A stretch of DNA of 64,000 nucleotides, taken from contig CAKOGP040002424.1 of NCBI GenBank assembly GCA_933822405.4, positions 663,108 through 727,107 of the forward strand, given 5' to 3'. This DNA comes from Cylindrotheca closterium (Eukaryota > Bacillariophyta > Bacillariophyceae > Bacillariales > Bacillariaceae). The notes beneath the pieces were generated by a model that was not told the DNA's origin, searched no databases, and saw nothing but the letters and a program-made list of their open reading frames with translations. The translations under genes and the position numbers were made by a program. Of the stretch, positions 37,137-50,063 are shown one piece after another. Position 1 is the first letter of the stretch; every line of letters starts with the position of its first letter.

Positions 37137-39110
37137 TCAATCCAAATCCCCCATGTCGGTCTGTTCTTTTGACGGAACAGTGTCCAAAAGGTCAACTGGA
37201 GTAGCGGCACTACTTTCAGCAGTCTTATTATCTGCATCTAGATCCGTCGTTGGTGTCGTGTTGTTGGACCCTCCTCCCAGTTCGATATCCACTTCTGGTT
37301 TGTTGGTAGACGGAGGTGCGTAATCCGTGGGTATTATCGTGGGCGAGTTCGCAGCCGTGTCTGGTTCCGTCTCGCCACCAAAGGCTGCCGTAGTATTAAA
37401 TAGTTCTGCATCCTCTGGTTGTTCAGAAATACCAAAGATGGCGAAACCGAGACAGCACAGTATTATGCCAGCCTGAAAAGTATAGCGGTTTGTTAGTTGT
37501 GGTGTTGCGGTGAGGTTGAATGAATAAATGATTGCATTGCAGATATTGATTGTAGTGATATATATGATGAATATGAACGTACCACGAGCAAAAAGGGAGA
37601 AATGATCCAAAAGGATGAAAACGTGGCACCTTGAAGCTTTGCCACAAATAGACACACCAGCACCAAAACGAATCCTTGGGAGCAGCATTTGGTACACAAG
37701 TTGGAGGCGTGGACCATGACTTCGGCTTTAAGATTTTCTCGCTCATCCTCGGTCAAGGGGGTTGGCGGAGACGCTCCTCCTCCTGCTGCATCCGGCGTGG
37801 CAGTACCATCCACTCCAACCGCTCCATAATCGGTACTGGTATTGAGCGGATCTCCTTCGATACCGAATAGTGTGGGATCCTTTTCCGCAGCTTTCTTTTG
37901 TACTTCTGCAAACGTTTGGTAGTTATTCAAGCAAACCAAAACGGAAATCACCCATACTGGCAAGAAAACGAGCCACCAGCTCAAGGTAAAGCTTCCACCA
38001 AGTTGTAGCAGTAAAAACAAACTGAAAATGAATCGAAAGGCGCTCTTGACCAGTTCTTGTCGAGCTGCACTCTTGGCTCGGATGGCTTCTTGGAAATCTT
38101 CCCCTTCTAAAGACGACACAACCGCATATCCTTCCTTGACCGCTTCCTTTTCTTCTTCTGTAAATTCAGCGGTTGATTTTCCTAAGGCAGCTTCCAAGTC
38201 TGCAATGGTCACAATCTTCATTTTCGTCATGGGCCATTTCTTGTAGACGGACATAAGCTCCCACAAGTAATATGGCAAAAATGCCATCAACCAACTTCCT
38301 CCAAAGGAGTCGTCCAACTTGAGAGTGGCAAAGATTTCGAAAAGAGTAAGCAAGCCAAATCGAAAGAAGGACATGTATCTCTTTGGCATTGGAAGGGGAT
38401 CCGACCATTCTTCTTCTGGGATGTGTTCCGGTCTCTCAATGGGTCCCATCATGATCAGTCGAACATGATAAAACACCAAAAAGCCGTCCCAAATCCACAG
38501 GGGTATAAAGGTTGCAAACCAGGAAGCATTTTCTCCAAAGGATCCGTCCAAATGCAAACAAATAAAGATAGGCAAGAGAAGAATAGCCACTGCCACTGCC
38601 ACAAAAATGGCAAAAATCTTGGCCCTATCCACAACAGAGGACTTGCTAAAGTTCGTGGCCAAATCTTGAGGATCAATGCTGAACGGCTCGTCAATCCATT
38701 TCATTCCTCTTGCTCCTATAGCATCGTAGGTTTCTCTCTTATGTGGATCACTGAGCACCTCGTAGGCTTCCTTCATTTTGGTGAATTCTGCCTGAAGTTC
38801 ATCCGTCACGGTTTGACCTCGTTGGGCCAGTTTGTCGGCTATATAGGTGCAAGTAAGTAAGGACAACGAATGAATGAATGAATCAATCGGTTAGAGTCAA
38901 GCAGCATATACAACTCAACTCAACTCAACTCAAGAATATAATAAAATACTCACGATGCATTTGGAGACTCTTTCTTTTGTAGGCTTTCTTCACGTCCTCC
39001 GCACTCGCATCTCGTTCCACGCCCAACAAATCGTAATAATTGGTTTCAGATTCATCGTCACCCAGAAACGACTTGCAACAAAACACGAAGAATGAAAGAT
39101 CCAATCTCAT
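37137..39110 (-). CDS. Multi-pass membrane J-domain protein
   Basis: Three exons (39110-38954, 38838-37583, 37472-37137) give 582 residues. The J domain is at the N-terminus: NYYDLLGVERDASAEDVKKA, with the HPD motif created only by splicing (CAT C in exon 1 joined to CC GAC in exon 2). The YEVLSDPHKRETYDAIG end follows. After this come about eight hydrophobic helices in repeated pairs with LDGSFGENASW, LDDSFGGSWLM and LGGSFTLSWWL motifs, suggesting an internal repeat of a membrane unit. The C-terminal ~110 residues start with a last helix and end in an acidic Thr/Ser-rich tail. J proteins stimulate Hsp70; the topology would place the J domain at the cytosolic face of an endomembrane. The 5' frame above ATG 39110 has no ATG. 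Confidence 0.85.
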
Positions 39111-39547: not shown

Positions 39548-40870
39548 ATGACCAAAAAGGCATACATGACAATCCAAGCGGGGAATGCGCAGCCAGAGCG
39601 TCTCGATTTGGTGTTGTATCATGATTCGGTCCCACGTACTGTGGCCAATTTCTGTCACTATTTGCAGGCTTCAGACAATAAGGGATACAAGAATTCAACC
39701 TTTCATCGCATCATCAAAGGTTTCATGGCCCAAGGGGGTGACTTTTTGAATTCCGATGGAACGGGTAGCACCTCCATTTATGGCAAGACCTTTCCAGATG
39801 AAAACTTTTTGCATCGACACCTTCAACCTGGAACCCTGTCTATGGCCAACAGTGGAAAAGACACCAATGGGAGTCAATTTTTCATTACCTTTCGTCCAAC
39901 ACCACATTTGGATGGAAAACATGTTGTCTTTGGACATGTAGACTTGAGCACACCAGAGAGTCTAGCCACATTGGAACGATTGGAGGCTGTGCGAACAGTC
40001 AGGGATGACAAGCCACACAGTCCGGTTCGAATTGTGGATTGTGGTGTTGAAGAGGAAGAGGAGGAAGAGGAACCAGAAAACAAACATCAAGAAGTGGCAA
40101 GCGTCAAGACTACCGACACTATTCCAGAAGAAGAAGAAGAAGATTCAAACGAGTTGGAATTGCCAGAATCCGAAGACGAGGAACCACCCAAAACAAAGGC
40201 AGAAGCCATCAAAAGAAGGATGCGAAAACTCAAACTCAAAATGAATCAAGCTCGACAATTGAACAAGCAAGAAGTTTTAAAGGAGGGAGAGCGCTTGACT
40301 AGTGTTGAGGGCGCGACAGCCGTTCGCAAGCGGCAAATCAGAAAGGATAAGAAGATGAACGAAGCGGACTGGAAGGCAAAAAATTCCAAGGCATTTGGTG
40401 TAGCTGCGGCTCATGGTATTGATGGAAAACACTTGGTGCAACAAGCGGATTCAAGTCTCAAAGCAGCCTTTAAAAAGAAGGCCAAGGCCAAGGCAAATCG
40501 ATTTGAAATGCAAGATTATTACAATTCCGAAGGTCAGCATCGAAACTACGAACGAAATCTCAAAAGTCTGGTAACGGCAGCTGCACCTCTGGACGATGCA
40601 CACAATTCTACCGAAACCTTTAATCCAATTGCTGTGAACAATGCATCCGACGAAGCAAGAGAGCGAGCGGGAGCCCGTAATTTGGCAACCGAGATGAAAC
40701 GAAGAATTGAAAAGCAGGCCAAGAAGAAGAGGGAGAGGATGGAGTTTGAAGAAACTGACGTCAGTTATATCAACAGTAGAAACAAGAGATTCAATCAAAA
40801 GATTAGCCGCAACTTTGACAAGAGCACTGCCGAAATTCGGCAAAACTTGGAACGGGGAACGGCGCTGTAG
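39548..40870 (+). CDS. Cyclophilin-type prolyl isomerase fused to SYF2 splicing factor
   Basis: A single uninterrupted exon of 440 residues. Residues about 1-170 are a cyclophilin domain with FHRIIKGFMAQGGD and MANSGKDTNGSQFFIT, so the catalytic Arg, Phe and Gln region is intact; the usual Trp before LDGKHVVFG is His. An acidic low-complexity linker (about 170-215) follows. Residues about 218-440 match SYF2/p29: the MRKLKLKMNQARQLNKQEVLKE helix and the highly conserved end DVSYINSRNKRFNQK...TAEIRQNLERGTAL. SYF2 is a component of the NTC/Prp19-associated spliceosome, and several cyclophilins also bind spliceosomes. The fusion places both in one chain. Confidence 0.9.
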   Translation: MTKKAYMTIQAGNAQPERLDLVLYHDSVPRTVANFCHYLQASDNKGYKNSTFHRIIKGFMAQGGDFLNSDGTGSTSIYGKTFPDENFLHRHLQPGTLSMANSGKDTNGSQFFITFRPTPHLDGKHVVFGHVDLSTPESLATLERLEAVRTVRDDKPHSPVRIVDCGVEEEEEEEEPENKHQEVASVKTTDTIPEEEEEDSNELELPESEDEEPPKTKAEAIKRRMRKLKLKMNQARQLNKQEVLKEGERLTSVEGATAVRKRQIRKDKKMNEADWKAKNSKAFGVAAAHGIDGKHLVQQADSSLKAAFKKKAKAKANRFEMQDYYNSEGQHRNYERNLKSLVTAAAPLDDAHNSTETFNPIAVNNASDEARERAGARNLATEMKRRIEKQAKKKRERMEFEETDVSYINSRNKRFNQKISRNFDKSTAEIRQNLERGTAL

Positions 40871-41075: not shown

Positions 41076-44048
41076 CTAGGGCTGCGTAGTCACCAATTTT
41101 TGTCCATTCGAATCAAGTAGATTCGCGGCAGGTACATTTTCACTATCTAGCTCTCCATTGCAATTGGCAAAGTAATTGGGATCAGGAAATCCATGCACTG
41201 TACTATCTGGGTGTGTCTTGTGGTGAATGGATGACCAAGTACATTGGTTGGTAGCACCCGTCGTCATGGATGTACCAATCGTAAATGTCAATCCATGGAG
41301 AAAAGCAAACTTGAGTCTCTTGAGAAGATTTCGACCGTCAGGGTTGTTTGGGAGGTAGGCAGTTGCATGCTTGTCCGGGTGGGGTTGTCCTGGATTCTCG
41401 TGGTAGTGCTTTTGGGTTCCTGCCTGCATGGAGTACACAATCACAATCGTGTCCCAAGCCGCAAATCCGCTGCACTTCAGATTATAGGTGATACTGATAG
41501 ACATGGAACCAGATGGCGATTTTCCAAGCGGCGTTCCGATGCATTTGCGACAAGTTGGACATTTGGAACCGAACTTGCAAGCTTGCTCGATACAGTCTTT
41601 GTGAAATACATGGTTGCATACCTTCAAAGCGACACAGCACGAAGGATCGGAAAGGGCATCGTGACAGATAACACAGTCACTCTGAAAGTTGCACGATGAA
41701 GGAGGAAGGCAGAAGGCTTCGTTTGGGTTGACAGCACCAGAGAGCCTTTCTGGAGCAATGTATCCAACTACAGCTTGTTGCATTGTTCCATTTTGGGGAT
41801 TGAGTCTGACTGTAGCCCCGTATCTATGAGGTATGGCAGAGCTTGAAATGGTTGTGGAAGCTGAACCCGTACCAAAAGCCCTACCAACACCCACACCAAA
41901 AGGCTGGGCAATGGGAGGAATCCCACCAAGTACAGTTTGTTTCTTTGTACCATTGACATCAAGTAGGTTTGCTGCAGGGACATTTTCGCTATCTAGCTCT
42001 CCATTGCAATTGGCAAAGTAATTGGGATCAGGAAATCCATGCACTCCGCTGTTGGGCGACGTCTTGTGGTGAATGGAGGACCAAATACATTGGTTGGTAG
42101 CACCCGTCGTTATGGAGGTACCAATAGTAAATGTCAATCCATGGAGAAAGGCAAACTTGAGTCTCTTGAGTAGGCTTTGACCGTCAGAGTTGTTGGGAAG
42201 ATAGGCAGTTACGTACTTGCCAGAATGCGATTGTCCTGGATTCTCGTGGTAGTGCTTTTGGATTCCTGCTCGTATGGAATATGCAATCACAATCGTGTCG
42301 CAGTTTGCAAATCCGCTGCATTTCATACCATTGAAGACAGGAGGGATCATGATAGACATGGATCCCGATGGTGATTTCCCAAGCGGCGTTCCGATGCATT
42401 TGCGACAAGTGGGACATTTGGAACCAGACTTGCAAGCTTGCTCGATACAGTCTTTGTGAAATACATGGTTGCATACCTTCACAGCGACACAAGACCGAGG
42501 ATCGGAAAGAGCATCGTGACAGATAGCACAGTCAATTTGAAAGTTGCATGATGAAGGAGGAAGGCAGAAGGCTTCGTTTGGGTTGACAGTACCAGCGAGC
42601 CTTTCTGGAGCAATATATTGAAATAGACCTTGCTTCCTTGGTCCATAATGTATTGGGCCTGGGAAATTTGTGGAAGAAGGGTCTGTATACCGGTAGCAAG
42701 TCAGTGGTGCTCCGGTCAAGCCTGGATTGAAAACTTGGTCGAGGATCGCTTGCAGCGATCTGGTTAATCTTTGGATGAAATCTTGCCCTTCTTGAGATCC
42801 AACTAGCCCCATGTCGTACTTAATCATGGGCAAGCATTGGGCAGAGGTCTTGAGGACGACGATTTCGCGATCGGGCACAAGAACAGTGTTGGCACCATCA
42901 GTAGTTTGTTGCCCAAACGTTTTCATAGTTCCCAGTAAACGACCGACGATCAGTCCAGTGTTACCATAGCCCGCAAACTTTGTTGGACTGTTCCCAGTAT
43001 AGACACCGTCACCATAAGTGCTGCCATGGAATCGGTGAGCTTGTATTCCTTGCGAATCTCGTTCGTTCCTGGTCATGAGACCATTTGTACGAATGCTGTT
43101 CAAATTTGTGGAATCGGTATAGTGGTATCCGATATCAACAAACCCGAGAATCCCAGAAGCAAGAAATTCGCGCTGCTTCTCCAATAGATTTTTGGCCAAG
43201 AAGACCATATCATCGGTGCTCACCGAGTCAAAGTTCTGAGCAAAGTTGGGATACTCGTTCTTGGCTTGGTCCTTGGTATTTTTGGTCAGTTCCAGAATCT
43301 CCTGAACCACAAGGACGGCTTTACCATAGGGGGACTTGGTCATTGCTTCATGTTCCTTCTCAGCATCTGCCTTCTTGAGCTGATACTCCTGCTCTTGTAT
43401 AGTAGAAGCTAGTTGATAGTCCAATTTTCGCTGCGGAGACGAAGAGAGAGATGGAATGTTTAGGTTGAGATTTTGTATATCTTGGTTGGTCTGTCGCCGC
43501 TTTGAATCCGTAACATTATCAACTCCAGGTTGGTATCGGCACTTGCTGGGTGTAGTAGGAGGAGAAGTTGGCAATGCTGCGGGCTTGCAGTCATTGTTAG
43601 TACCAACCACGGTTGCCTTCTCTTTCATCCTTGTTGAAATTTTTGGTGTCTCTCCTTCGCCTTTAAGGTACACATGGGGATCGACGTCTGAGTCTATTGC
43701 AGTGGGTGGGCTCTTCCTATTGCGCGCTACGGCGTTAGTGTTCGCTGTATCTTCTGGAGACTCTTTTGTTATTTTGACCGCAGCGTTTTTGGATCCTTCT
43801 GAAGCCTTCTCGCAGTTACTGAGAGACGCAAGGAGACCGTCATCTGAAGAGTCAAATGTAGGTCTCTTCCGATTGGCAGTCGCAGCTACCGCATTCGCTG
43901 ACGGTGGATCCAAAAAAGATCCTTTTTTGGATCCATCTTGAGATTGGTGTTGCCACTGCTTTCTTTGTCTATGAGACGGCAATGCGGCCGGCTTGCGGTC
44001 GTCCTCGCTATCAGTCGCTTTCGACTCCTCGTGATTGCTTGGCATCAT
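41076..44048 (-). CDS. PARP-like / (RING-Deltex)x2 fusion protein, copy 1
   Basis: A single exon of 990 residues. Residues 1-210 are disordered and basic/acidic. A helical region (about 210-300) precedes a PARP-like ADP-ribosyltransferase domain (about 300-440) with GYHYTDSTNLNSIRTNGL, YGDGVYTG and REIVVLKTSAQCLPMIKY, giving candidate triad His309, Tyr350, Glu395. Then come two RING-Deltex modules. RING 1 is 507-551 (CAIC...CNHVFHKDC...CPTC) and its Deltex C-terminal domain 553-690. RING 2 is 792-836 and its DTC 838-978. Both DTCs keep GTSxTTGATNQC, IHHKT and HGFPDPNYF, the residues that bind ADP-ribose and act in catalysis in animal Deltex proteins. The product should be a ubiquitin ligase linked to ADP-ribosylation. 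The double module is unique to this copy. Confidence 0.85.
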   Translation of the reverse strand: MMPSNHEESKATDSEDDRKPAALPSHRQRKQWQHQSQDGSKKGSFLDPPSANAVAATANRKRPTFDSSDDGLLASLSNCEKASEGSKNAAVKITKESPEDTANTNAVARNRKSPPTAIDSDVDPHVYLKGEGETPKISTRMKEKATVVGTNNDCKPAALPTSPPTTPSKCRYQPGVDNVTDSKRRQTNQDIQNLNLNIPSLSSSPQRKLDYQLASTIQEQEYQLKKADAEKEHEAMTKSPYGKAVLVVQEILELTKNTKDQAKNEYPNFAQNFDSVSTDDMVFLAKNLLEKQREFLASGILGFVDIGYHYTDSTNLNSIRTNGLMTRNERDSQGIQAHRFHGSTYGDGVYTGNSPTKFAGYGNTGLIVGRLLGTMKTFGQQTTDGANTVLVPDREIVVLKTSAQCLPMIKYDMGLVGSQEGQDFIQRLTRSLQAILDQVFNPGLTGAPLTCYRYTDPSSTNFPGPIHYGPRKQGLFQYIAPERLAGTVNPNEAFCLPPSSCNFQIDCAICHDALSDPRSCVAVKVCNHVFHKDCIEQACKSGSKCPTCRKCIGTPLGKSPSGSMSIMIPPVFNGMKCSGFANCDTIVIAYSIRAGIQKHYHENPGQSHSGKYVTAYLPNNSDGQSLLKRLKFAFLHGLTFTIGTSITTGATNQCIWSSIHHKTSPNSGVHGFPDPNYFANCNGELDSENVPAANLLDVNGTKKQTVLGGIPPIAQPFGVGVGRAFGTGSASTTISSSAIPHRYGATVRLNPQNGTMQQAVVGYIAPERLSGAVNPNEAFCLPPSSCNFQSDCVICHDALSDPSCCVALKVCNHVFHKDCIEQACKFGSKCPTCRKCIGTPLGKSPSGSMSISITYNLKCSGFAAWDTIVIVYSMQAGTQKHYHENPGQPHPDKHATAYLPNNPDGRNLLKRLKFAFLHGLTFTIGTSMTTGATNQCTWSSIHHKTHPDSTVHGFPDPNYFANCNGELDSENVPAANLLDSNGQKLVTTQP

Positions 44049-44630
44049 TCTTCAAGCAATAGTCTTCTGCCTCTTCATTGCAAAGATCCACTTTTTGAGC
44101 CATCCTCACAGTAGGTGGAGTGGGCTATGTGACCATGGGGTCATACAAGGATGGGCGTCACAGATTCTCTACTTTGAAAAAAATAGTATCAACGGATCGG
44201 CATTTTTCAAACGTGCCATACCACAAGGTCGGTCACGTGGAATAGTAGGTATTGCAGCAATAACAACCCATTCATCTTGGAGAAAAACTCAGCCATGACA
44301 GCTTAGTTTATCGAAACTGGTTGAATTGATTTGTTGTTGATGCATAGTATCTTCCTGTTACACGACTGACTGATGTCACTGTTACCTGCTTGTGTCACCT
44401 GTCACCCTCAGATGGATTTCGCAACCGTGCCTACAGTAGTACCTAGCAAATCTCAGATTTCCCGCTTTGTACGGGATTTCTAAGACTAGATCGGGCTCCC
44501 TTAAAATACAAGGAAGATACAATTTCGAAATTGAAAACCACAACAGGACTGGTGCATATTAGTTCTTGCTAAAGTCATCCTATTATTTGAAGCTATTCTG
44601 GTACTACTATTGGTAGACTTGTCCATCTTT
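42750..44630. repeat. Segmental duplication, left copy
   Basis: This stretch (5' half of fusion gene copy 1 and the whole spacer to copy 2) recurs at about 45617-47509, offset 2,867-2,879 nt. The spacer (44049-44620) looks identical by eye over more than 500 noncoding bases. The coding parts differ at few sites, including a 12-nt indel near residue 197. Very recent duplication or gene conversion is implied. Confidence 0.9.
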
Positions 44631-44638
44631 CCTATTTT

Positions 44639-46927
44639 CTAATGCTGCGTAGTAACCAATTTTTGTCCATCGACGTCAAGTAGATTCGCGGCAGGTACAT
44701 TGGCGCTATCTAGCTCTCCATTGCAATTGGCAAAGTAATTGGGATCAGGAAATCCATGCACTGTACTATCTGGGTGTGTCTTGTGGTGAATGGATGACCA
44801 AGTACATTGGTTGGTAGCACCCGTCGTCATAGATGTACCAATCGTAAATGTTAATCCATGGAGAAAAGCAAACTTGAGTCTCTTGAGAAGATTTCGACCG
44901 AAAGTATTGTTTGGAAGGTAGGCAGTTGCATGCTTGTCCGGATGGGGTTGTCCTGGATTCTCGTGGTAGTGCTTTTGGGTTCCTGCCTGCATGGAGTACA
45001 CAATCACAATCGTATGAAAACTCGGAAATCCGCTGCACTTTAGCTTATTAGTGATACTGATAGACATGGAACCAGATGGCGATTTTCCAAGTGGCGTTCC
45101 GATGCATTTGCGACAAGTTGGACATTTGGAACCGAACTTGCAAGCTTGCTCGATACAGTCTTTGTGAAATACATGGTTGCATACCTTCAAAGCGACACAA
45201 CACGGAGGATCGGAAAGGGCATCGTGACAGATAACACAGTCACTCTGAAAGTTGCACGATGAAGGAGGAAGGCAGAAGGCTTCGGTTGGGTTGACAGCAC
45301 CAGAGAGCCTTTCTGGAGCAATGTATTGAAGTACAGCTTTTCCGATTGTGCTGATTCGGGGATTGCTTTTGCCTCCAATCAAATATCTGTTAACTGCGGC
45401 AGGGCCTGGGAGGTTTTTGAACGATGATCCGGGACCAAAATATTGGGTAGGAGGAGGCCCACGATTGGAACTGACAAATGAATTCTGTGCAATGAATGAT
45501 GGCGGCACCGTCGCATTTCCACCACGCGCATTGCTTGAAGCTGTTGCTACATTCCAAGGCGTGGGTAGTACCGGTGGTCCTCTCAAGCCTGGATTGAAAA
45601 CCTGGTCTAGGATCTCTTGCAGCGATTTGTGTAATCTTTGGATGAAATCTTGCCCTTCTTGAGATCCAGCTAGCTCCATGTCGTACTTAATCATGGGCAA
45701 GCATTGGGCAGAGGTCTTGAGGACGACGATTTCGCGATCGGGCACAAGAACAGTGTTGGCACCATCAGTAGTTTGTTGCCCAAACGTTTTCATAGTTCCC
45801 AGTAAACGACCGACGATCAGTCCAGTGTTACCATAGCCCGCAAACTTTGTTGGACTGTTCCCAGTATAGACACCGTCACCATAAGTGCTGCCATGGAATC
45901 GGTGAGCTTGTATTCCTTGCGAATCTCGTTCGTTCCTGGTCATGAGACCATTTGTACGAATGCTGTTCAAATTTGTGGAATCGGTATAGTGGTATCCGAT
46001 ATCAACAAACCCGAGAATCCCAGAAGCAAGAAATTCGCGCTGCTTCTCCAATAGATTTTTGGCCAAGAAGACCATATCATCGGTGCTCACCGAGTCAAAG
46101 TTCTGAGCAAAGTTGGGATACTCGTTCTTGGCTTGGTCCTTGGTATTTTTGGTCAGTTCCAGAATCTCCTGAACCACAAGGACGGCTTTACCATAGGGGG
46201 ACTTGGTCATTGCTTCATGTTCCTTCTCAGCATCTGCCTTCTTGAGTTGATATTCTTGCTCTTGAAGCATAGCCGCTAGTTGATAGTCCAATTTTCGCTG
46301 CGGAGAAGAAGAGAGCAAAGCGGAACAATTTGGAATGTTTGGGTTGAGATTTTGTATATCTTGGTTGGTCTGTCGCCGCTTTGAATCCGTAACATTATCA
46401 ACTCCAGGTTGGTATTGACGCTTTCTGGGTGTAGTAGGAGGAGAAGTTGGCAATGCTGCGGGCTTGCAGTCATTGTTAGTACCAACCACGATTGCCTTCT
46501 CTTTCATCCTTGTTGAAATTTTTGGTGTCTCTCCTTCTCCTTTAAGGTACACATGGGGATCGACGTCTGAGTCTATTGCAGTGGGTGGGCTCTTCCTATT
46601 GCGCGCTACAGCATTGGTGTTCGCTGTATCTTCTGGAGACTCTTTTGTTATTTTGACCGCAGCGTTTTTGGATCCTTCTGAAGCCTTCTCGCAGTTACTG
46701 AGAGACGCAAGGAGACCGTCATCTGAAGAGTCAAATGTAGGTCTCTTCCGATTGGCAGTCGCAGCTACCGCATTCGCTGACGGTGGATCCAAAAAAGATC
46801 CTTTTTTGGATCCATCTTGAGATTGGTGTTGCCACTGCTTTCTTTGTCTATGAGACGGCAATGCGGCCGGCTTGCGGTCGTCCTCGCTATCAGTCGCTTT
46901 CGACTCCTCGTGATTGCTTGGCATCAT
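44639..46927 (-). CDS. PARP-like / RING-Deltex fusion protein, copy 2
   Basis: A single exon of 762 residues, nearly identical to copy 1 over the first ~435 residues, including the PARP-like His, Tyr and Glu positions. The linker before the RING differs (Gly/Pro/Asn-rich, GNATVPPSFIAQNSF). It has one RING (CVICHDALSDPPCC...CPTCRKC) and one Deltex C-terminal domain ending NYFANCNGELDS. Its RING-DTC is closer to the second module of copy 1 than to the first. It shares an identical upstream spacer with copy 1, so both may be driven by the same promoter sequence. Likely an ADP-ribose-linked E3 ubiquitin ligase. Confidence 0.87.
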   Translation of the reverse strand: MMPSNHEESKATDSEDDRKPAALPSHRQRKQWQHQSQDGSKKGSFLDPPSANAVAATANRKRPTFDSSDDGLLASLSNCEKASEGSKNAAVKITKESPEDTANTNAVARNRKSPPTAIDSDVDPHVYLKGEGETPKISTRMKEKAIVVGTNNDCKPAALPTSPPTTPRKRQYQPGVDNVTDSKRRQTNQDIQNLNPNIPNCSALLSSSPQRKLDYQLAAMLQEQEYQLKKADAEKEHEAMTKSPYGKAVLVVQEILELTKNTKDQAKNEYPNFAQNFDSVSTDDMVFLAKNLLEKQREFLASGILGFVDIGYHYTDSTNLNSIRTNGLMTRNERDSQGIQAHRFHGSTYGDGVYTGNSPTKFAGYGNTGLIVGRLLGTMKTFGQQTTDGANTVLVPDREIVVLKTSAQCLPMIKYDMELAGSQEGQDFIQRLHKSLQEILDQVFNPGLRGPPVLPTPWNVATASSNARGGNATVPPSFIAQNSFVSSNRGPPPTQYFGPGSSFKNLPGPAAVNRYLIGGKSNPRISTIGKAVLQYIAPERLSGAVNPTEAFCLPPSSCNFQSDCVICHDALSDPPCCVALKVCNHVFHKDCIEQACKFGSKCPTCRKCIGTPLGKSPSGSMSISITNKLKCSGFPSFHTIVIVYSMQAGTQKHYHENPGQPHPDKHATAYLPNNTFGRNLLKRLKFAFLHGLTFTIGTSMTTGATNQCTWSSIHHKTHPDSTVHGFPDPNYFANCNGELDSANVPAANLLDVDGQKLVTTQH

Positions 46928-47509
46928 TCTTCAAGCAATAGTCTTCTGCCTCTTCATTGCAAAGATCCACTTTTTGAGCCATCCTCACAGTAGGTGGAGT
47001 GGGCTATGTGACCATGGGGTCATACAAGGATGGGCGTCACAGATTCTCTACTTTGAAAAAAATAGTATCAACGGATCGGCATTTTTCAAACGTGCCATAC
47101 CACAAGGTCGGTCACGTGGAATAGTAGGTATTGCAGCAATAACAACCCATTCATCTTGGAGAAAAACTCAGCCATGACAGCTTAGTTTATCGAAACTGGT
47201 TGAATTGATTTGTTGTTGATGCATAGTATCTTCCTGTTACACGACTGACTGATGTCACTGTTACCTGCTTGTGTCACCTGTCACCCTCAGATGGATTTCG
47301 CAACCGTGCCTACAGTAGTACCTAGCAAATCTCAGATTTCCCGCTTTGTACGGGATTTCTAAGACTAGATCGGGCTCCCTTAAAATACAAGGAAGATACA
47401 ATTTCGAAATTGAAAACCACAACAGGACTGGTGCATATTAGTTCTTGCTAAAGTCATCCTATTATTTGAAGCTATTCTGGTACTACTATTGGTAGACTTG
47501 CTCATCTTT
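45617..47509. repeat. Segmental duplication, right copy
   Basis: Counterpart of the left copy at 42750-44630. It covers the 5' half of copy 2 and the spacer between copies 2 and 3. Identity drops abruptly inside the 3' ends of the genes, which marks the conversion or duplication edge. Confidence 0.9.
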
Positions 47510-47517
47510 CCTAATTT

Positions 47518-50063
47518 CTAGTGTTGCGTAGTAACCAATTTTTGTCCATTCACATCAAGTAGATTTGTGGCGGGTACATTGGCGCTATCTAGCTCTCCAT
47601 TGCAGTTGGCAAAGTAATTGGGATCAGGAAATCCATGCACTCCTCTATTTGGGGACGTCTTGTGATGAATTGACGACCATGTGCATTGGTTGGTAGCACC
47701 CGTCGTCATTGATGTACCAATCGTAAATGTCAGTCCATGGAGAAACGCAAACTTGAGTCTCTTGAGAAGATTTCGACCGCCAGCATTGTTTGGAAGGTAG
47801 GCAGTTTCGTGCTTGCCAGGATGGGGTTGTCCTGGATTCTCGTGGTAGTGCTTTTGGGTTCCTGCCTGCATGGAGTACACAATCACAATCGTGTCCCAAG
47901 TCGCAAATCCGCTGCATTTTAGATTATCAGTGATAGGGGGGACGTTAATAGACATGGATCCGGACGGCGATTTCCCTGATGGTGTCCCGAGGCATTTGCG
48001 ACAAGTGGGACATTTGGAGCCAAACTTGCAAGCTTGCTCGATGCAGTCCTTGTGAAATACATGGCTGCACACCTTCAAAGCAACACAAGACCGAGGATCA
48101 GAAAGGGCATCTTGACAAATAGCACAGTCACTCTGAAAGTCACATGATGGAGGAGGAAGGCAAAAGGCTTCGGTTGGGTTGACAGCACCAGAGAGCCTTT
48201 CTGGAGCAATGTATCGAAGTACAGCTTGTGGCATTGTTCCATTTTGTTGATTGATTCTGCCTCTATTCCCGCCGAATCCATGAGTTGTGGCAAAGCCTGG
48301 GATGGTTGTAGAAGCCGAACCCATACCAAAAGCCCTACCAACCGCAGCACCAAAAGGCTGGGTAATAGGAGGAATCCCACCAAATGGGGCATTGGAACTA
48401 GAAGAGGAATTCTTCTGTGCATTGCGAAGAGATGGGTGAATCGGCAAAGATGCTGGAGGAGGTACCGTCATAGTGCCACGGTTCCCATTGTTTGCAGCCG
48501 CTCCTGTATCAAAAGACATTGGTGGTGCTGTCAAGCCTCGATTGAAGACTTGGTCGAGGATCTGCTGTAGCGATGTGTGTAATGCTTGGATGACTTGTTT
48601 CCCTTGTTCCGATGTAGCTAGCGTCTTGTTGTACTTGATCACGGGCAAGCATTGGGCCGAGGTCTTGAGGACAACCATTTTGTAATTGGGTACCAGGACA
48701 GTATTGACGCCATCACTAGTGTGCCCAAACAATTGCATAGTTCCTAGTAAACGGCCGACGATCAATCCAGTGTCACCATAGTTCGAAAACTGTATTGGAT
48801 TGTTCCCAGTATACACACCGTCACCATAAGCACTTCCATTGAATCTATTCGCTTTGACTCCTTGTGAATCTCGTTCGTTCTTAGTCATGAGACCGTTTGT
48901 ACGTATGCTGTCCAAATTTATGGAATTTGTATAGTGATATCCTACATCCACAAAGACAGAGCTTGATCCAGTAGCAAGAAAGCTGGCTTGTGTCTCCAGG
49001 AGATTTTTTGCCAAGAACACCATATCATCTGTGCTAACCGAGTCAACATTCTGCGCAAAGTTGGGATACTGGTCCTTGGTCTTTTTAGTCAGTTCCAGAA
49101 TCTTCTGAACTACAAGGATGGCCTTACCATAGGGCGACTTGGTCATTGCTTCATGCTCCTTCTTGGCATCTGCCTTATTTTTCCTGCTATTGGCCTCATA
49201 TTCTTGCTGTTGCAGAATAGTCGCTAGTTGAAAGTCCGAAGACTTCCGCTTCGCAGAAGAAGAAGGCAAAGCTGAACAAGTTGCAATATTTGGGTTGAGG
49301 ATTATTTTGTACAACGCCTTTATGATAAGAGGAATATAATCCTGGTGGCGGGCTTACCTTGGGTCCGATTCCGTTGCTGTGAAGGAGGAAGCACCCAACA
49401 TTCTTCATCATCACCACTATCACTATCTAGCATCACTATGATATCTTGGTTGTTGGCAGATTTTGTGCTGGTAATAATTCTTGTATCAACGACGATGACA
49501 TCTTGATTGATCTGTTGGCGCTTTGAGTCATCACCATCATCATCATCCACTCCAGATCGGTGTCTTTTCCGTCCAGGATAAGTTCCTGGCAATGCTGCGG
49601 GCTTGCAGTCATTGTCGCTATCAATCTCGATTACCTTCTCTTTTATAGTTGCGAGTGCCTTTGGTTCCTTCTCTTCACCCTTCAAATACGCAACAAGACC
49701 GATGTCCGAGTCATCGTCCGAGTCTAGTGCAGTGGGTGATGGTTTCTTCCGCGTTTTGCGCGCCACGGCTATAGTGCTAGTCGATGCATTTTGTGGATGT
49801 TCTTGTGTGATTTTTGCCGCAGCCCTTTTGGATATTAAATCCTTGTCGTCACCCTTGAAATAGGCAACTAAGCTATCATCCGAGTCATCACCTGCGCCAA
49901 ATCCAGTCGCTGATGGTTTATTCTTTGGCAAAGATCCTTGTATTTCTTTTGAGGAGGATTGGTGTCGCCGCTTTTTTCGTCGAGGAGAAGGCACTGCGGC
50001 AGGCTTGCAGTCGTCATCGCTATCAATCACTATCGATTCCGCTTGATTGCTTGACATAATCAT
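47518..50063 (-). CDS. PARP-like / RING-Deltex fusion protein, copy 3, with SUMO-interaction-like motifs
   Basis: Two exons give about 819 residues: 50063-49358, then 49271-47518 after an 86-nt GTAAGC...TTCAG intron that restores frame. I preferred ATG 50063. This is the most diverged copy. Its N-terminal third holds several hydrophobic-plus-acidic motifs (SIVIDSDDD, VIEIDSDND, DVIVVDT, IIVMLDSDSGDDEE) that look like SUMO-interacting motifs; these are mostly eroded or missing in copies 1 and 2. The PARP-like domain keeps GYHYTNSINLDSIRTNGL and YGDGVYTGNN, but the Glu position reads NYKMVV instead of DREIVV. RING (CAICQDAL...CPTCRKC) and Deltex domain are intact. Exon 1 could also start at ATG 50057. 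Confidence 0.82.

Follow-up and report, generated by a model that had tools for sequence, protein, structure and literature searches.

Three adjacent genes lie head to tail on the minus strand at positions 41076-50063 of a 64,000-nucleotide stretch of the genome of the marine diatom Cylindrotheca closterium (hereafter, the window), and each encodes a PARP-like region, a RING domain and a Deltex C-terminal (DTC) domain. On balance, we favor the reading that each gene (copies 1 to 3) encodes one protein that combines a PARP-type ADP-ribosyltransferase (ART) fold with one or two RING-DTC modules, and that this protein would ADP-ribosylate a target and then ubiquitylate that ADP-ribose. The domain order, the identity of the RING and DTC domains, the retained His and Tyr of the ART-like domain, the His-Glu pair of the DTC, the linchpin Arg of the RING, and the occurrence in several genera are read from sequence, while the transferase fold is that of a predicted model, and the use of NAD+ and the two-step reaction are what we infer from these together. 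The architecture is real, conserved, and unusual, and each of its parts is already known. Judged by sequence and model, the mechanism with the best support is a putative two-step activity carried by one chain, with the main doubt concerning the transfer of ADP-ribose by the tandem copies.

An earlier note, made from the DNA letters, had described three neighboring genes, each with PARP-like, RING, and Deltex domains, and Pfam matches (for RING and DTC) together with the predicted fold and the homology among the copies (for the PARP-like part) bear this out. Its count of one RING-DTC module per gene holds for copies 2 and 3, but copy 1 carries two. Copy 3 consists of two open reading frames (ORFs) across one intron, and the translation of the joined coding sequence (CDS) is identical to NCBI protein P0003. 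NCBI's model for copy 1 (P0002) skips 73 bases at 41204-41276 as an intron, by which the end of the second DTC is lost. As the frame is open without this intron and then encodes a complete second DTC, the intron is probably a prediction error.

The profile of the DTC (PF18102), with which the note had proposed to check the assignment, matched all three genes strongly (E 3.3e-36 for copy 2, 2.1e-36 for copy 3, and 5.4e-76 over the two domains of copy 1), and zf-RING_2 was found in the array genes at E 1.5e-8 or better. In all four modules of the window the RING is directly followed by the DTC, which is the core arrangement of Deltex proteins, and all four keep the motifs IHHKT and HGFPDPNYF that the note had pointed out. 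Among PDB entries, copy 2 matched the sequences of DTX2 (E 5.5e-32), DTX1, and DTX3L best. According to passages of the work of Zhu and colleagues (PMC7615817), His582 and Glu608 of DTX2 activate the 3'-hydroxyl of ADP-ribose, and this pair is conserved among DTX proteins. In the alignment of the PDB match, the two residues map to the first His of IHHKT and the Glu of GELD, both kept in all four window modules; a paralog elsewhere in the genome, at C496, has IHHKT and DELD at these positions. Across the family, the pair was present in 28 of the 29 cases counted, with a pattern that presupposed part of the motif; the sole exception, P0020, has lost both residues. The linchpin Arg was found in 43 of 46 RING modules, including all four of the window. 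Pfam gave no match up to E 1 for a WWE domain (as in DTX1/2/4) or for RRM/KH domains (as in DTX3L) in the array proteins. These domains mark subfamilies rather than the RING-DTC core, and the genes are therefore assigned to the RING-DTC ligases without being placed in DTX1/2/4 or DTX3L. Given the kept His-Glu pair and the linchpin Arg, the array modules would be expected to retain ADP-ribose ubiquitylation, and might modify lysines as well.

For the region upstream of these modules, the fold comparison that the note had suggested for copy 1 was run on a predicted model of copy 2, which takes a PARP-type ART fold, so that the refuting outcome named in the note did not occur in the model; the C496 paralog, modelled separately, is predicted to do so too. 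The best fold matches of copy 2 include PARP10, PARP12, PARP14, and PARP15, at 12-17 percent identity over aligned residues among the matches listed. Catalytic residues were read from an alignment of 55 of the 62 family proteins, with the seven that have no second motif (P0026, P0053-P0057, and P0061) left out; the family alignments A3 and A4 were built from 44 and 36 chosen rows. The first-motif His is present in 51/51 ungapped rows, the second-motif Tyr in 54/55, and a Gln in 55/55. In PARPs, the His and Tyr position NAD+. The third catalytic position, eight residues before the invariant Gln, is a Glu in 47 of the 55 proteins; the exceptions carry Ile (copies 1 and 2, P0004), Met (copy 3, P0024, P0025), Phe (P0020), or Trp (P0021). 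The C496 paralog has the full His-Tyr-Glu set. A candidate His-Tyr-Glu triad had been noted earlier for copies 1 and 2: the His and Tyr stand, but the Glu chosen lies nine residues before the Gln, where the family Glu lies eight before it. With the Glu off by one, the tandem copies resemble the PARPs of H-Y-[hydrophobic] type, which are mono-ADP-ribosylating or silent, whereas most relatives keep H-Y-E. By these residues, the tandem copies would be either mono-ADP-ribosyltransferases or pseudo-enzymes. At least five PF00644 matches (L006-L010, at C101, C223, C257, C425, and C329) and eight macrodomain matches in the C. closterium genome point to a wider ADP-ribosylation toolkit. A count by eye gave the same register in three of these PARPs (L007 and L010 not included), with Glu at the position eight residues ahead of the Gln in the PARP1-like L006, and Ile there in L008 and L009.

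The 47.6-Mb C. closterium assembly contains five places with a DTC, four in the array and one in the C496 gene; the latter, unlinked to the array, also has an ART domain, so that every DTC found in the genome is fused to an ART. A protein search with copy 2, which scored the 7988 candidates with the most shared words, returned 26 proteins, 21 of them with a DTC. Among the other five, P0024 matches RING but not DTC, P0026 contains PDZ, and no Pfam domain was found in P0022, P0023, or P0025; the chains of P0022 and P0023 stop shortly past the ART part. With the ART part of P0007 as query, 44 proteins were found, 33 with a DTC and 11 without a Pfam domain, and with that of the C496 paralog all five proteins found (5/5) had a DTC. 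The relatives from named organisms were all diatoms (Cylindrotheca, Bacillariaceae, Thalassiosira, Skeletonema, and Chaetoceros) in searches that did not target other stramenopiles by name, and many hits were metagenome proteins. One of these, the 656-aa P0026, has PDZ domains, then a KPAA-like stretch with a motif-interacting-with-ubiquitin (MIU)-like one, and the start of an ART at its end; it is perhaps a PDZ variant of the ART-RING-DTC family.

The survey of diatoms and the transcript check that the note had asked for thus both turned out in its favor: the architecture occurs in several genera, and the transcriptome-derived relatives P0007, P0028, and P0059 (MMETSP/EukProt) have it on a single chain, which supports one mRNA. 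Together, these argue that the fusion is not a join made by gene prediction. That the ART and RING-DTC parts are separate genes, or that the joined reading arose by chance, could appeal to the transcript-derived support being proteins of relatives; this is nonetheless very improbable in view of the open frames of 762 and 990 aa, the same order in several diatom genera, in transcript-derived proteins, and in the unlinked C496 paralog. A chance or annotation artefact was rejected in view of the long open frames, the conserved order, and the transcript-derived relatives. With regard to a viral origin, 125 pattern matches came up when viral_contigs was scanned once with the alignment of the family, and no relative was confirmed among them.

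The N-terminal tails of the proteins carry recurrent short motifs. The count covered 40 of 61 proteins, namely those in which the first ART motif was present and the tail measured at least 60 aa: SUMO-interacting-motif (SIM)-like matches occurred in 23/40 tails (1.1 expected from shuffles), MIU-like matches in 22/40 (0.28 expected), and a conserved [RC]KPAA motif in 22/40 (0 expected). Since the patterns were written after the sequences had been seen and the relatives share ancestry, the excess over shuffles is descriptive only. In total, the family tails contain 41 SIM and 32 MIU matches in 6641 aa, against one of each in 9823 aa of a control set of 17 other long, mechanically called ORFs of the window. 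The labels SIM-like and MIU-like follow the SIM and MIU consensus. In the array, each of the three copies has one MIU-like motif, and [DN]-[RC]KPAA, often behind acidic runs, lies at 43983-44003, 43575-43595, 46862-46882, 46454-46474, 49995-50015, and 49593-49613.

These tails, and the linchpin Arg that human DTX proteins lack according to a passage of PMC7615817, would also suit a RING-DTC that is mainly a conventional lysine E3 of the SUMO-targeted type, with ADP-ribose merely steering it to substrates. At least two SIMs plus a RING are taken as the mark of such ligases; by our post hoc pattern, copy 3 has two SIM-like matches, and a pattern search of the tails of copies 1 and 2 found none. 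We consider this alternative improbable, as the window modules retain the His-Glu pair that would activate the hydroxyl, and two of the three copies are without a SIM-like motif.

The SIM-less tails of copies 1 and 2 likewise count against the single-chain ADP-ribosylation and ubiquitylation that we favor, and so do several properties of the ART-like domain. Its Foldseek TM-scores are modest (query-normalised 0.35-0.46 among the matches listed), and the whole-chain model of the C496 paralog has a predicted TM-score (pTM) of 0.47, which does not fix the relative placement of ART and RING-DTC. The PARP profile PF00644, proposed in the note as a check, stayed below its curated cut-off in copies 1 and 2 (15.8 versus 26.7 bits in Pfam), was not among the Pfam matches of copy 3, and matched 11/36 family members at E 0.1 (best 0.0016). 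The PARP-like call therefore rests on the predicted fold and the homology among the copies, and we term the genes PARP-like rather than filing them as PARPs. Searching the PDB with the ART region by phmmer gave no significant match (three hits, best E 0.13), and the best 60 of 191 matches of a profile search were all RING or DTC proteins. Alignment of the family core to three PARPs of the C. closterium genome with hhalign was weak (E 0.0004, 40 columns, probability 34), and a greedier setting left the third catalytic motif unaligned; the register of that motif accordingly rests on the invariant Gln. A weak likeness to DarT was also seen (a 27-residue PDB match at E 0.13; a profile match in 2/36 members, best E 0.06), by which the acceptor of ADP-ribose may include DNA. 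DarT was not among the best 50 fold matches listed for the ART model, an absence that does not exclude it. Finally, the third catalytic Glu is missing from all three tandem copies, and these copies have His-Tyr(-Thr) where PARPs have His-Gly(-Thr).

The last two points could also mean that the ART of the tandem copies is a pseudo-enzyme, which would bind NAD+, ADP-ribose, or only partners and serve to recruit or regulate a Deltex ligase of the ordinary kind. The close fold matches of copy 2 include TASOR, described as a pseudo-PARP, as well as PARP13, which is inactive. A model for a regulatory role would be PARP9, whose ART domain is termed inactive in a passage of a review (PMC13224862), acting for DTX3L. 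We regard this as a serious but unlikely alternative, as the His and Tyr are kept in all three copies, the ratio of nonsynonymous to synonymous changes (dN/dS) of the ART between copy 3 and the others (0.28-0.32) indicates constraint, and PARP14, with Leu at the third position, is an active mono-transferase according to the same review passage.

For the RING-DTC part, dN/dS between copy 3 and the others is 0.14-0.21. For the tail of copy 2 versus copy 3 the ratio is 0.51, and for the ART of copies 1 versus 2 it is 0.86, with very few changes and hence little information. Copies 1 and 2 are 96.7 percent identical in DNA over their first 1.35 kb. The second RING-DTC of copy 1 is nearest to that of copy 2 (95.1 percent protein identity), and its first has diverged more, sharing 82.7-84.4 percent with the others. 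In both the ART tree and the RING-DTC tree, rooted at their midpoints and the former without a settled bootstrap, the C496 type falls in a clade apart and the window copies group with P0004. As both trees separate the two types, the joining of ART and RING-DTC probably predates the array.

Each part of the architecture has counterparts elsewhere. Like the array, the vertebrate PARP9-DTX3L system (with PARP14) joins an ART-fold domain with a Deltex RING-DTC that keeps the His-Glu pair. It does so with two or three separate proteins carrying RRM, KH, and macro domains (PMC13224862, in part), whereas the array proteins are one chain, show no RRM, KH, or macro domain in the Pfam listing, and keep the His and Tyr in the ART. 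With DTX1-4, the array shares the direct RING-DTC order and the catalytic pair, and the model of the C496 paralog shares 34-37 percent of its aligned residues with DTX structures; unlike DTX1-4, the array proteins have no Pfam WWE, an ART and a SIM/MIU-like tail upstream, a linchpin Arg, and, in one protein, a doubled module. The mono-ADP-ribosylating PARP10, PARP12, PARP14, and PARP15 resemble the window copies in predicted fold and in the hydrophobic third residue, but are set apart by the low identity, by His-Gly-Thr in place of His-Tyr-Thr, and by the PF00644 score. A precedent for PARP and ubiquitin-pathway domains on one protein is given by the Dictyostelium U-box-macro-PARP and clade 6A PARP-UBCc proteins, in which, as far as an excerpt of PMC2964712 describes them, the ubiquitin part is a U-box or E2-like fold, unlike a DTC acting on ADP-ribose.

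A 2009 survey called Deltex, listed as a WWE/RING protein, holozoan-specific (PMC2770060), whereas in Ectocarpus, a brown alga, a Deltex assigned by KEGG was listed in a gamete study (PMC3879662); the diatom RING-DTC genes, by sequence, widen that range. A 2014 survey, noting that earlier work on the sequenced diatoms had turned up no PARPs, reported at least two in Thalassiosira oceanica (PMC4245714). A 2025 paper describes upregulation of Deltex E3 members during sexual reproduction in all four diatoms studied, including C. closterium (PMC12618581); its main text contains no match for 'adp-ribos'. In databases, family members are named 'deltex-like' or 'RING-type E3 ubiquitin transferase', with no ADP-ribosyltransferase part named. 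The note's view that the fusion was undescribed in algae thus needs qualifying: its members already had database names and diatom Deltex was in print, at least in that main text (PMC12618581), but we found the ART part unmentioned, and no description of an ART-RING-DTC protein in the literature searched, which excluded most subscription papers.

Features of the array in the window (positions on the forward strand)
Feature	Coordinates	Strand	Basis
Copy 1, 990-aa single ORF: PARP-like ART + RING-DTC + RING-DTC	41076..44048	-	ORF, Pfam
Copy 1 ART-like domain (His309, Tyr350, Ile396 at third catalytic position, Glu395 beside it)	42702..43358	-	
Copy 1 first RING, Arg at linchpin position	42402..42533	-	Pfam
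Copy 1 first DTC, His660-Glu684 pair	41985..42380	-	Pfam
Copy 1 second RING	41547..41690	-	Pfam
Copy 1 second DTC, His942-Glu966 pair	41139..41525	-	Pfam
Copy 2, 762-aa single ORF: ART + RING + DTC	44639..46927	-	ORF, Pfam
Copy 2 MIU-like motif, predicted ubiquitin-binding	46256..46288	-	
Copy 2 ART-like domain, region modelled for structure (His313, Tyr354, Ile400)	45548..46225	-	
Copy 2 RING	45110..45241	-	Pfam
Copy 2 DTC, His714-Glu738 pair	44705..45088	-	Pfam
Copy 3 exon 1, N-terminal tail	49359..50063	-	
Copy 3 SIM-like motif VIEIDSD, predicted SUMO-binding	49614..49634	-	
Copy 3 SIM-like motif IVMLDSD, predicted SUMO-binding	49419..49439	-	
Copy 3 intron, 86 bases, GT-AG	49273..49358	-	joined CDS = P0003
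Copy 3 exon 2, ART + RING + DTC, stop included	47518..49272	-	
Copy 3 ART-like domain (His348, Tyr389, Met434)	48517..49161	-	
Copy 3 RING	47998..48129	-	Pfam
Copy 3 DTC, His771-Glu795 pair	47584..47976	-	Pfam

Adjoining the array, a 440-aa ORF at 39548-40870 encodes a cyclophilin-type prolyl isomerase (E 5.5e-44) with a SYF2 splicing-factor domain (E 5.1e-18). A further ORF at 37493-38866 has a partial DnaJ match below cut-off, followed by a TMEM185-type membrane domain.

ADP-ribosylation of a target, recognition of the mark, and its ubiquitination on one protein, as the note had envisaged, would fit the kept ART His and Tyr and the DTC His-Glu pair. In the proposed sequence of events, the tail (SIM-like in copy 3 and many relatives, MIU-like in all copies) would steer the protein toward targets marked with SUMO or ubiquitin. 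ADP-ribose would then be written onto the target by the ART domain; with Ile or Met as third catalytic residue, the tandem copies would, if active, add mono-ADP-ribose. The adenine-proximal ribose would be held by the DTC, whose His-Glu pair would activate the 3' hydroxyl, and the E2~ubiquitin bound by the RING would pass its ubiquitin to this hydroxyl. With its linchpin Arg, the RING may modify lysines as well.

The likely setting of this activity is sexual reproduction. Since all DTC genes found in the genome carry an ART domain as well, the Deltex genes induced in C. closterium sex likely belong to this family. Tentatively, we picture a diatom ADP-ribosyl-ubiquitin synthase on one protein, targeted through readers of SUMO and ubiquitin and turned on in sex, which in the pennate lineage of C. 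closterium may have split into a single-copy H-Y-E enzyme and a mono-ADP-ribosylating tandem array, one member of which has a doubled ligase; this whole picture is possible rather than probable.

An ART domain this divergent may have escaped earlier surveys of diatom PARPs. In animals, the transferase and the Deltex ligase are separate, and, in the passages of PMC12687431 cited here, the coupling of ADP-ribosylation to ubiquitylation is an open question and the role of PARP9 is disputed. If the single-chain version is true, the two-step ADP-ribose-ubiquitin reaction could be tested with one purified protein, which could also serve as a tool for producing ADP-ribose-ubiquitin, and the coupling would appear not to be confined to animals. 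It would also supply a mechanism for the Deltex induction reported in diatom sex (PMC12618581, main text).
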